This document shows positions 10,583 to 14,270 of a stretch of 57,639 bases of DNA, piece by piece (the first letter of the stretch is position 1; every line of letters begins with the position of its first letter). The position numbers and the translations under genes were made by a program. The stretch is from Verrucomicrobiaceae bacterium (GTDB lineage: Bacteria > Verrucomicrobiota > Verrucomicrobiia > Verrucomicrobiales > Verrucomicrobiaceae): contig JAEUHJ010000139.1 of assembly GCA_016795375.1 (NCBI GenBank), positions 1 through 57,639 on the forward strand. The letters run 5' to 3'. Under the pieces are notes generated by a model. That model was given only the letters and a program-made list of their open reading frames with translations. It had not been told where the DNA came from and did no database searches.

Positions 10583-12172
10583 TTACGCGGCCTGCTCGTC
10601 GATCTTGACGACCTTGTAACCGCCAATGGCCTTGAAGTAGAGCAGCAGGAGCAGGTAGATGGCGGCCATGGTGGCGGGGAGATACGAGTCGAACTTGAGC
10701 GTTTTGCGGTCCCCAATCCGGTCGGCGGCAACGACGGCCTTTTGACTTTCGGTGGCGGCCTCCTTGGCATCCTTTGCCGCGGCGAGCTTGGTGCCGTCAA
10801 AGCCATAGGTGGCGGTGGATTTGATGTTGAGGAAGGTGCTGGGCTGGGCGGCTTTGTATTCTTCAAAGACAGCGGCGTTTTTCGTCTTCAGCTCCTCACC
10901 GGCAAAGCGATCCTTCAGATAGCCGAGGCCGGAGCCGCCGATAGTTCCCACGGACAGCATGCCGATGCCACCCATGATGGAGATGGCCACGGCACCGCTG
11001 CGCGGATAACGGTCGGAGGCGACCGCCAGCATGGTGGGCCAGAAGAAAGTCTTGCCCACAGCGTAGATGCCCAGAGCGACGAGGGCTGTGGTGAAGGTGT
11101 TCATCGTGGAGGCCAGGGTGAGGCCGGCGCAGGCGAGGACCGAGCAGACGAACAGCAGGCCCACGGGGGAGAGTTTAAGCGTGTTCTCGATCCAGTGACC
11201 GCAGAAGCGGAGGCCAAACATGATGGCCGAGGTCCAGAGGAACAGGTATTTGCCTTGTTCCGAGGTGAACAGGTTGCCGGTGATGAACTGGATCCACTGG
11301 TCGGTGCCCAATTCCACCGAGCCGATGATGGCGTGAGTGAGGAACAAGATGAACAGCAGGAAGGAGCCGAGGGAAAAACGCGTGAGAACGCCGACAGCGA
11401 CCACGACGAGTCCACCGACGACATAACCGACGATCTTGGCGGTGTCGGGCTCCACGCTGAAGAGCTTGAGGAAGTCCGCGAAAAAGAGCGAGAGGAGAGC
11501 GCCGACGATGAGAGCGCCGAGGATGCCCACATCTTTGAGCATCTGGCCGAGGCTGGCTCCTTTCTCAGCAGCTTCCGAGCGTGGAAATTTCTGTCCCATG
11601 AACATGAGGCCGTAAATGGCGGTCGGGATGAGATAGAGCGCCAGCTGCGATTTCCAGCCAAGCCCCATCTTGTCGTCCAGCACCCAGCCGAGCGCTGTGC
11701 CAAGGATCATGCCGGCGGGCCAGCTTGCATGGAGGAGATTGAGGTAGTGGGTGCGGTTTTCCGGGAACAGCGTGGCGACCAGGGGGTTCGCCACGGCTTC
11801 GAGCGTGCCGTTGGCAAAGGCAAAGATGAACATGCCGCCAAAAAGATAATTATAAGCGAGTGTTTGCGCGGCAACCCCACCATCACCCGGCACAGCGGCG
11901 AATGTCACGACTGCCGATATGATGTGAAGCAAGAATGCAGTGATCACGAGTTTGCCGTAGCCGACTTTATCGCAGATCACACCGCCGATGATGATGCCGA
12001 AGCAAAAACCGGACAACCCGGCGGCACCGATGGCCCCGAGCTGCGCCCCAGTGAAGCCGAACTCCTTGCCCCAGTTGTCAAAGATGCCGCCACGGATGGC
12101 GAAGCCGACGCCGGCCGCGAGGATGGCCATGAAGCCGGCCCAAAGGAGTCTCATTCGATTGTTTTCGCTCAT
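10583..12172 (-). CDS. MFS transporter, paralogue 1
   Basis: The start at 12172 (MSENNRMRLLWAGF) is preferred over an upstream in-frame ATG because it directly precedes the first membrane helix. The 529-residue protein shows about twelve hydrophobic segments. Family-typical stretches include FAFANGTLEAVANPLVATLF and LNLLHASWPAG, shared with the neighbouring paralogue and resembling the FucP-like sugar branch of the MFS. An unusual hydrophilic insertion of about 80 residues (GYLKDRFAGEELKT... to ...KTLKFDSYLP) separates the last two helices. The protein ends LYFKAIGGYKVVKID. The substrate is unknown. It has its own terminator downstream, and the repeat array lies upstream. Confidence 0.8.
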   Translation of the reverse strand: MSENNRMRLLWAGFMAILAAGVGFAIRGGIFDNWGKEFGFTGAQLGAIGAAGLSGFCFGIIIGGVICDKVGYGKLVITAFLLHIISAVVTFAAVPGDGGVAAQTLAYNYLFGGMFIFAFANGTLEAVANPLVATLFPENRTHYLNLLHASWPAGMILGTALGWVLDDKMGLGWKSQLALYLIPTAIYGLMFMGQKFPRSEAAEKGASLGQMLKDVGILGALIVGALLSLFFADFLKLFSVEPDTAKIVGYVVGGLVVVAVGVLTRFSLGSFLLFILFLTHAIIGSVELGTDQWIQFITGNLFTSEQGKYLFLWTSAIMFGLRFCGHWIENTLKLSPVGLLFVCSVLACAGLTLASTMNTFTTALVALGIYAVGKTFFWPTMLAVASDRYPRSGAVAISIMGGIGMLSVGTIGGSGLGYLKDRFAGEELKTKNAAVFEEYKAAQPSTFLNIKSTATYGFDGTKLAAAKDAKEAATESQKAVVAADRIGDRKTLKFDSYLPATMAAIYLLLLLYFKAIGGYKVVKIDEQAA

Positions 12173-12420
12173 AGAGGATGGGGAGGGTGGTTGGTGGGTG
12201 GGATTGCGGGAAAGGGCGTGTTTTAGGTGCCTCCCTTCGCTGCGACAAGGAAAAAATGCTCGCACAGATGAGAACTGGCCACGCGGGGGCGGAAGGCCGG
12301 TGCGCGCGGCTCTCAGCGCTCTTTCCGCGGCTTTCTTATCTCCATGTGCCATCGAGCAGGCGGATTGAGGCGGTTCTGCCAGGGGGTGCCGGGGGCTTGG
12401 GACCGTGCGGTGGCTTCATG

Positions 12421-12693
12421 CCGCCGCACCGGGAGATCGTCCGGCGGTGCGGAATCTTCTTCCGGCGGCATCGGGAATCCATTCCACCGCACGGTAGAAT
12501 CATTCCACCGTGCCGGGAAATCGTCCGGCGGTGTGGATTTTTTCGTCCGGCGGTGCCGGGGAATCATTCCACCGTGTCGGAAAAGTGTCCGGCGGTGCGG
12601 TTTTTTCGTCCGGCGGTGCCGGGGAATCATTCCACCGTGCCGGAAAAGTGTCCGGCGGCGCGGTTTTTTCGTTCCACCGTGCCGGGAAACCGC
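12421..12693. repeat. tandem array of 13 alternating 20-22 bp GC-rich units with hairpin/T-tract modules
   Basis: Thirteen consecutive 20-22 bp units fill 12421-12693. Type A units start CCGGCGGTG and type B units start CCACCGTG; these contain complementary CGGTG/CACCG cores. Unit starts are 12421, 12441, 12462, 12484, 12505, 12525, 12547, 12569, 12589, 12610, 12632, 12652 and 12674. A higher-order period of 63-64 bp is evident for 12525-12588 and 12589-12651. Each B-A junction can fold into a roughly 9-bp stem with a 2-nt bulge, and three of these are followed on the plus strand by T6 (12538-12543, 12601-12606, 12664-12669). The array lies between two minus-strand MFS genes, and nearly every frame through it is stop-free. 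I regard it as non-coding. Confidence 0.85.
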
Positions 12694-12713
12694 CCCGAGC
12701 CGCGCCGCGCCGC

Positions 12714-14270
12714 TCAGAAGCCCGGCTTGACTTCCTCGCCGTGGCCGAGGGCGACGGGTTTGTAGCCGCCTTTGGTGCGGAAGTAGAGCAGCATGAGCAG
12801 GTAACAGACGAGCATGAAGGCGGGGAGGATGGCGATGTTGGTGAAGGCACCGCGTTTGCTGTCGGCCTGCACGGCATTGAGCTCATGGGTGGCGGCGGGG
12901 GACAGCGCCTTGATCTTCTCTTGGTCGAGGCCGGGGGTGCTGCCGAAGATGCTGGGCTTGGCCGCGCCTTCCACCTGGGCGAGGAGGGCGGTGTGACCGC
13001 TGGCTAGGCGGGCGTGCATGTCCTTGTCCTGCTGGTAGCCGATGAAGGGGCTGCCGAGCACGCCGAGGAAGAGCACGCCGACGGCGGAGACGCCGTTGAG
13101 GGTGAGGGCACCGCCTTTCGGGAACTGCTCGGAGGTGAGGCCGAGCGTGGTGCTCCAGAGGAAGGTCTTGCCGAAGGCATAGACGGTGGAGGCTGCGACG
13201 ATGGTCCAGCCGACGCTTTTGGAGAGGAACACTAGGCCAACGATGGCGACGGCGGAACCGAGTACGAGCAGGCCGACGGGCGAGAAGCGATGCACGATGG
13301 GCCCGGCGTAGAAGCGCAGGATGGTCATGATGGTCGAAACATAGACGAATACCCAGGCGGCGAAGGTGACATTGCCCTCCGCGGAGGCGAAGGGGCCGTT
13401 GAGCTTCAGCAGTTCCGGCATCCAGCCATCGGTGCCCAGCTCCGTGGTGGCCAGGGGGCCGATGATGATGAGCACGAGGATGAAGAGCCAGTTTCCTGCG
13501 GAGAGGGTGTAAATCCCCGCCAGCAGGCCGACGAGCGCACCGGCGATGAGGGAGGACTGGAGGGATGCCTCCTTGCCGGCCATCTGCATGATGGCGAAGT
13601 ACATGAGAAATCCGATGATGAAGAAGCCGACGGCGCCGACTTCCCGCAGCATGTCACGGTAGCTCACGCCGGCGGCGACTCGTTCATTGACGGGGAATTT
13701 GCAGGGCAAAATGAGCAGTGCGTAGGCCACCACCGGGATGAAGCTGAGGGCGAAGCGGAACTTCCACACGGCGTCAAAGAACAGCCGCGTGTCGGGGAAC
13801 AGTGCGCAGAACAGCGCACCCAGCGCCAACCCCGCAGGCCAACCGGCGTGCAGGATGTTCAGCCACTTCGCCTTTTCTTTGCTGAATACCGTGGCGACGA
13901 CGGGATTGATGAAGGACTCGACGGTGCCGTTCGCGACGGCCACGAGCAGCGTGCTCCAGTAGAAGGACTCGTAACCGGTGGCGTTCAGCGTGAGCACGAG
14001 CGAGACGAGATGGCAGGCGATGGCGAAGAGGGCGACGGTCTTGTAGCCAATCCAGTCGATGACGAGGCTGAAGAAGATGATGCTGATGGCGAAGGGCCAC
14101 ATGCCGGCGCCGTTGATGTTGCCCTTTTGCGCCTCGGAGAGGTTGAAGCCGTCCTGGAGCAGGCCGATGGAGTTCGCCCGCACGCCGAAGACGAAGGAGG
14201 TGGCGACGAGGGCGATGAAGCAGGCCCAAAAGAGTTTCATGTCGGCTTTGCCGGAGGTGGACTGGCTCAT
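12714..14270 (-). CDS. MFS transporter, paralogue 2
   Basis: The ATG at 14270 (MSQSTSGKADMKLFWAC) precedes the first helix; MKLF at 14240 is an alternative. The 518-residue protein has about twelve membrane segments. It shares with paralogue 1 the ANGTVESFINPVVATVF and LNILHAGWPAG motifs, a TELGTDGW/VELGTDQW motif and the closing LYFRTKGGYKPV. It also has a hydrophilic insertion of about 75 residues before the last helix (QQDKDMHARL... to ...DSKRGAFTN). The two genes look like an old tandem duplication, and the repeat array fills the space just downstream of this stop codon. The substrate is unknown; a sugar is a guess from FucP-like features. Confidence 0.8.
   Translation of the reverse strand: MSQSTSGKADMKLFWACFIALVATSFVFGVRANSIGLLQDGFNLSEAQKGNINGAGMWPFAISIIFFSLVIDWIGYKTVALFAIACHLVSLVLTLNATGYESFYWSTLLVAVANGTVESFINPVVATVFSKEKAKWLNILHAGWPAGLALGALFCALFPDTRLFFDAVWKFRFALSFIPVVAYALLILPCKFPVNERVAAGVSYRDMLREVGAVGFFIIGFLMYFAIMQMAGKEASLQSSLIAGALVGLLAGIYTLSAGNWLFILVLIIIGPLATTELGTDGWMPELLKLNGPFASAEGNVTFAAWVFVYVSTIMTILRFYAGPIVHRFSPVGLLVLGSAVAIVGLVFLSKSVGWTIVAASTVYAFGKTFLWSTTLGLTSEQFPKGGALTLNGVSAVGVLFLGVLGSPFIGYQQDKDMHARLASGHTALLAQVEGAAKPSIFGSTPGLDQEKIKALSPAATHELNAVQADSKRGAFTNIAILPAFMLVCYLLMLLYFRTKGGYKPVALGHGEEVKPGF

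Follow-up and report, generated by a model that had tools for sequence, protein, structure and literature searches.

A 21-bp-phased array between two transporter genes

The window, by which we mean the whole stretch of 57,639 nucleotides analysed here, carries two minus-strand genes that both match MFS_1, namely MFS1 at 10583–12172 (E 2.5e-14, start codon at 12172) and MFS2 at 12714–14270 (5′ end as used here; E 1.5e-12), and their 35% identity bears out the sequence-only reading of this DNA, which had called them paralogues flanking an array. The array lies in the upstream region of MFS1, between the stop of one MFS gene and, ahead of the other, a promoter-like stretch that recurs in most of the aligned relatives. 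This stretch, TTGTCG-17 bp-TAAAAC at 12220–12248 on the minus strand, is the putative MFS1 promoter; a consensus promoter scan of 12100–12900 listed none, that stretch included.

The array (12440–12692) consists of twelve tandem units of two alternating types, which start at 12440, 12461, 12482, 12503, 12524, 12546, 12567, 12588, 12609, 12630, 12651 and 12672 (no strand assigned) and are spaced by 21 bp, one unit being 22 bp long. The tandem array described earlier therefore stands, while its count of thirteen does not: a thirteenth unit is at most part of a decayed, unstranded edge at about 12398–12439, where an inverted core pair, GACCGTGCGGTGGC / GCCGCCGCACCGG, can be made out by eye. Likewise, the unit range of 20–22 bp gives way to a step of 21 bp with a single 22-bp exception. 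Self-identity is 0.47 at lag 21 and 0.64 at lag 63, and TRF reports a higher-order repeat of 63 bp × 3.0 at 12497–12686 (90% matches), in agreement with the proposed alternation of unit types and higher-order period of 63–64 bp. Self-complementary CCGGC-GGT-GCCGG units had been placed at 12547 and 12610, and both are present in the sequence: the core CCGGCGGTGCCGG occupies 12547–12559, where 12546–12566 folds at −8.8 kcal/mol, and is read again at 12610–12622 (both without strand). Dyad symmetry of the units is insignificant in the window array in both tests applied (p 0.38 and 0.48), and Rfam gave no match in the window. When the window was cut into 700-bp pieces (n = 82), three attained a lag-21 identity of 0.52 over 84 bp, the array and two others, so that its periodicity exceeds chance. 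The sequence TTCCACCGTGCCGGRAA, at no more than one mismatch, has five sites in the own genome, four of them inside the array, so the unit is undispersed; a stretch of contig C180 considered as a second own-genome array looks by eye like low-complexity coding sequence.

For the transporter gap, 43 genus members match MFS2, and among them 18 with a nearby second MFS match were compared. The array was absent from the gap in all 18 (gaps of 108–688 bp); lag-21 identity was at most 0.43 in 17 of them, and the value of 0.55 in genome G015 comes from what by eye is coding-like sequence rather than an array. In G004, whose MFS2 is 90% identical, the gap measures 163 bp, against 547 bp in the window. 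Since the MFS pair lacks the array in every relative compared, the array is not ancestral to the pair, and insertion in the window lineage would be the simplest reading, with loss in the relatives formally possible. Two relatives (G047 and G002) have an extra ORF of about 130 codons in the gap, as judged by eye, and no array.

Hairpins and T runs on the plus strand

The sequence-only reading had neighbouring units of opposite type pairing at three plus-strand junctions, each followed by T6, and had likened these to terminators antisense to the flanking genes. The T6 runs at 12538, 12601 and 12664 are there, and the pairing before them is borne out by folding: the hairpin at 12503–12537 (−19.4 kcal/mol, z −3.1) precedes T6 at 12538–12543, that at 12567–12600 (−13.8 kcal/mol, z −2.1) precedes T6 at 12601–12606, and that at 12630–12663 (−16.5 kcal/mol, z −1.8) precedes T6 at 12664–12669, all on the plus strand. 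Folding both strands of the array region, a check that had been proposed, showed each to be more stable than its dinucleotide shuffles, with z scores of −5.2 for the plus and −4.4 for the minus strand. The hairpin-T6 modules on the plus strand do exist, though they are no trait of the family of arrays described below: the 56 gene-linked arrays hold 35 runs of T5 or longer, and 24 of these 35 are concentrated in four arrays.

Three consecutive intrinsic terminators on the plus strand, blocking antisense transcription into the MFS1 side, would account for the strong plus-strand folding and for the GC-rich hairpin and T run at each of the three junctions, of which a consensus terminator scan lists one. 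Over 12100–12900 that scan found two terminator-like sites, one of which falls in the array, where shuffles average 1.1; T runs are missing from most other arrays, and the window locus has no known antisense gene. The earlier suggestion of antisense terminators survives as regards the hairpin-T6 modules; the scan stays near the shuffle mean, and T runs do not mark the family. We judge this role improbable; it is possible for the plus strand and leaves the array family unexplained. As a separate observation, the four arrays that hold the 24 T5+ runs (L301, L302, L304 and L308) are related to one another; read in the gene's sense direction, their T5 runs follow GC-rich palindromes, an attenuator-like arrangement.

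Arrays with the same step elsewhere

A DNA search with the window array covered 96 genomes (the own genome and relatives) and gave many chance matches at E ≤ 1. Besides these, short matches came from two contigs of G082 (82% identity over 55 bp at E 1.6e-7; 91% identity over 34 bp at E 3.7e-6), whose contig C147 bears a gene-linked array, and G016 gave several weak matches in register. Inspection of the matched places revealed arrays with a 21-bp step. Patterns for the core and for the AT-rich linker, each at 21-bp spacing, matched in 10 of 68 genomes and, in a wider scan, in 89 of 239, a figure that includes many single pairs which chance may explain. By threshold and reading by eye, 15 of 18 examined places hold a 21-bp array; the exceptions are L245, L249 and L251, and it is L249 that is the site of the best DNA match. 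A 14-mer scan of the genome contigs gave scattered matches in at least 119 stretches. The suggested search for the unit in related genomes thus returned short matches (G082) and other 21-bp arrays, and no array in the same gap in the 18 relatives. A search of openly licensed papers found no account of arrays of this kind.

Two further observations concern the step. In G045, GGCRYGCC, a reversed control pattern, has 29 hits at 21-bp spacing, which suggests another array with the same step and a different word. In G166, from another family of the order, a 21-bp phase extends over about 14 units (L239, 316–610) that have little more than CTGY..CG..RCAG in common, and the locus yielded no FN3-family gene.

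An orphan FN3-fold gene family downstream of the arrays

At seven of the inspected loci (L241, L242, L243, L244, L246, L247 and L250) the array is followed, on the same strand, by homologues of one protein, an orphan encoded in multiple copies, with N-terminal helices and a C-terminal fibronectin-III (FN3) fold. It has no family match in Pfam, NCBIfam, PADLOC or PHROGs. The fold search matched the FN3 domain alone: Foldseek gave no PDB match at E ≤ 0.001, and its four matches among viral proteins at that threshold are FN3-like where named. A phage or plasmid home for the gene was rejected, as no phage or plasmid match was obtained, and none of 54 pattern-matched stretches of viral contigs encodes a relative. 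Of 68 genomes in the GTDB family, 33 matched a profile built from six homologues, with up to 15 matches per genome; in a draw of 145 genomes across the phylum 4 did so, two of them outside the GTDB family.

To this profile we owe 60 FN3 gene copies, taken from the top among the matches listed and chosen by length, not by arrays, with the seven starting loci excluded. An array was called where the 900 bp upstream showed a lag-21 identity of at least 0.52 that also exceeded lags 19, 20, 22 and 23 (rounded values). By this measure 53 of the 60 copies have an upstream array, two of which (L282 and L306) owe the lag-21 signal to a 7-bp repeat, whereas a lag-21 identity of at least 0.52 was seen in only 5 of 60 downstream flanks; as background, lag 21 gave 10 positives among 161 far flank pieces and 2 among 60 gene bodies. 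L327 and L338, two of the seven that missed, have less than 80 bp of upstream contig, and the others scored 0.51 (L291), 0.50 (L336), 0.49 (L293), 0.46 (L294) and 0.43 (L303). Because the FN3 genes at L327 (G056, contig C53) and L338 (own genome, contig C112) lie so close to a contig end, assemblies probably break at arrays or palindromes, and FN3 copy numbers are therefore probably underestimates. Over lags of 10–60 (n = 58) the best lag was 42 in 33 cases, 21 in 18 and another value in 7. G249, which belongs to a different class of the phylum, and G053 also have arrays ahead of an FN3 gene or a partial match (lag-21 identity 0.74 at L342, 0.63 at L347 and 0.64 at L345); L344 gives 0.50, and L343 of G250 has no array (0.38).

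Composition of the gene-linked arrays

The sequence of the array is private to each FN3 gene copy, while the 21-bp period is constant. In the better-defined arrays the unit is a 12-bp palindrome with a 9-bp spacer, for example GGTAGNNCTACC + 9 bp in the L330 group and GGGATGCATCCC + 9 bp at L311. Dyad symmetry of the unit reached p < 0.05 in 36 of 64 arrays and, by a second test, p ≤ 0.05 in 29 of 64, the window array being outside both sets. In five related arrays the palindrome arms differ by 0.092 and the spacers by 0.156 (p 0.011), a contrast to be read with the fact that masks shifted by one base separate equally well. The orthologous arrays of G037 and G039, beside a gene that we take to be purL, align over most of their units.

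These features bear on the possibility that the arrays are neutral minisatellites, generated by slippage and unequal exchange, with palindromes perfected by template switching and the step set by copying. Higher-order steps of 42 and 63 bp, arrays that are private to their locus and sometimes nearly perfect, and the array-free gap of the 18 relatives all speak for such an origin, yet it leaves unexplained both the exact 21 bp across unrelated sequences and the occurrence of arrays upstream in 53 of 60 copies but downstream in few for one gene family, and in one group the arms evolve more slowly than the spacers. We consider it rather unlikely, if the most serious of the rivals. The earlier suggestion of a minisatellite linking the two MFS genes is correspondingly split: amplification in steps of 42 and 63 is seen, and an element ancestral to the pair is not, given the 18 of 18 relatives without it.

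Translation of the arrays, at seven residues per unit, was also weighed. When frames are numbered from the FN3 gene, one has 15 stops over 53 arrays, as against 69 and 58 in the others, and more than one frame is open in several arrays; in the window, three of six frames are stop-free over 12437–12692, rather than the five stated before. The low-stop frame is, however, led by one subfamily of related arrays, the window array contains a 22-bp unit, and we rejected a coding repeat because no open frame is common to all arrays. This alternative is scarcely credible.

XRE-type regulators beside the gene-linked arrays

At 18 of 60 loci the array has a small XRE-type HTH gene ahead of it on its own strand (L339 being weak, E 9e-4), two of these HTH proteins matched HTH_3 and HTH_31 when tested in Pfam, and the profile detected no XRE-type gene at the other 42 gene-linked loci. 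A small MPFDP/MPYDP-type protein follows in 26 of 60 loci; at a separate locus, L242, such a protein contains a collagen repeat. For 13 of the 18 loci, three recognition-helix classes, derived from the same loci as those tabulated, pair with three array words in every case, with counts in the own class and elsewhere of 7–20 against 0–2 for GGTA[GT], 7–12 against 0–3 for GGGGGC and 7–9 against 0–2 for GGGGTG. At L335 the FN3 protein is nearest another class, whereas regulator and array share one class.

In a follow-up, 12 regulator hits were read among 32 listed. Seven had a measurable array: five agree (own genome, G017, G022, G006 and G020), one contradicts (G011, contig C50) and one is too weak (G007, contig C44). 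For G014 there was too little contig, and four had no array (G002, G001 and G013 twice), three of these being shortened or stop-bearing matches. Across 18 loci, partial Mantel tests related array similarity to HTH given FN3 (0.33, p 0.0008) and to FN3 given HTH (0.45, p 0.0006); because FN3 distance predicts array similarity as well as HTH distance does, co-inheritance is a sufficient account. In part of the family, then, the array of a relative is directly preceded by an XRE-type gene whose class changes, in most cases, along with the array word. At L381 (6680–6940; G013, contig C65) a full-length regulator of the RDM class, with no array or FN3 gene, directly precedes a frame that by eye resembles a site-specific recombinase.

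A solo array and its predicted role

The window yielded no FN3 gene, XRE-type regulator or MPFDP gene, and a search for FN3 gene remnants, both there and next to eight solo loci, gave weak matches (best E 0.019) that we rejected. The window array is a solo, free-standing copy of the gene-linked kind of array. The own genome has one FN3 copy, at the start of contig C112, and a regulator gene with a GGTA-type array that ends contig C237; the ends of the two contigs share 28 bp exactly, and the array word of this FN3 module differs from that of the window array.

A phased protein-binding array is the most economical account of these observations, with binding as a prediction, and of the three roles offered by the sequence-only reading it is the best supported, in that phasing is found in the window and its relatives, and dyads and XRE genes in the relatives. 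Repeats spaced by whole helical turns, as in an operator array, are present as the 21-bp step in both the window and the gene-linked regions. In the proposed mechanism, sites two helical turns apart would place a dimeric HTH regulator repeatedly on one face of the DNA, the 21-bp step would be kept for helical phase, and the bound regulator could act on the promoter of whichever MFS gene lies to the minus-strand side of the array, here MFS1; the window copy would have arrived as an array without its gene and may now affect the transporter. Tentatively, we lean towards the solo twelve-unit array being a multi-site operator, bound by a putative HTH protein and influencing the MFS1 promoter. It counts against this operator reading that the one regulator of the XRE kind found in the own genome pairs with an array of a different word. 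The insignificant dyad symmetry of the window array, the lack of an XRE-type gene in the window and at 42 of 60 gene-linked loci, the contradicting locus in G011 and the sufficiency of co-inheritance weigh on the same side.

A broader and more doubtful proposal is that the FN3 gene and its private 21-bp-phased array form a new module, in which the array is rewritten together with its own regulator so that one genome could hold many insulated circuits, and that free arrays such as the one in the window capture ordinary genes, for example a transporter. A gene family without a match in four libraries is preceded by arrays whose sequence varies by locus while the step stays constant, and in the window such an array stands alone ahead of a conserved transporter. 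If the arrays are operators, one genome would offer a natural set of diverging regulator-site pairs on which the evolution of protein-DNA specificity could be tested directly; otherwise, the constant 21-bp step over unrelated sequences still requires a cause.

Comparison with known systems

The lambda OR region is the model of tandem palindromic operators for regulators of the XRE/Cro-CI type. Like these operators, the gene-linked arrays have sites about two helical turns apart upstream of the gene that would be controlled, many of them dyad-symmetric, with an HTH neighbour at 18 of 60 loci; unlike them, they comprise about 10–25 putative sites rather than a few, their word is private to each gene copy, and most loci lack an adjacent regulator.

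TIGR arrays, as presented in excerpts of the TIGR-Tas report, alternate repeats of 8–12 nt with 9-nt spacers and are served by a Nop-domain protein (PMC12045711). By analogy, the arrays could encode guide-like RNAs with short repeats and 9-nt spacers, served by the FN3 protein, and the window array would be an orphan. An array beside one gene is common to those excerpts and our loci, and short repeats with 9-nt spacers may be so in part (PMC12045711): several arrays are built as 12-bp repeat plus 9-bp spacer, and the best lag of 42 in 33 of 58 is in keeping with such a design; a conserved-block test reached p ≤ 0.05 in 13 of 60. Set against the same excerpts, our arrays have no Nop-domain protein, often duplicate their spacers with the repeats and have no known transcript (PMC12045711). 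The window array is flanked by MFS genes, FN3-family proteins have no Pfam Nop match, and no nuclease domain was found in the FN3 protein; spacers amplify along with repeats in many arrays, and the window has no Rfam match. Sense-RNA hairpins were ruled out, as G-T mismatches in the dyads (379) do not outnumber A-C mismatches (573), nor when arrays are counted (11 versus 21 of 34, hand-chosen for low p). We regard guide RNAs as very improbable.

CRISPR repeats are given in the consulted part of another report as 24–48 bp long with non-repetitive spacers between them (PMC3733652), and the present arrays do not fit, because the whole 21-bp unit repeats as a unit. Borg tandem repeats, as far as the extracted text describes them, resemble these arrays in their independent origin and in fast-evolving tandem units in and between genes, and differ in having perfect units of variable length (PMC9879509), where ours keep a fixed 21-bp step tied to one gene family. 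Among Verrucomicrobia, REP elements with GTAG- and CGTC-tagged palindromes are reported from Opitutus terrae in the sections of the source used here, which present them as small extragenic palindromes, sometimes in tandem, as in our arrays (PMC3733652). In those sections, REPs are one sequence dispersed in high copy (PMC3733652), unlike arrays private to their locus, and with four of the five own-genome near-matches of TTCCACCGTGCCGGRAA inside the window array we rejected a REP/BIME assignment. Separately, a REP-like palindrome, CCGCACAG-AGGA-CTGTGCGG, with its variants flanks the array that belongs to the own FN3 module, where the assembly breaks, at about 1506–1570 and 2012–2052 of L380 (contig C237) and at 1–55 of L338 (contig C112).
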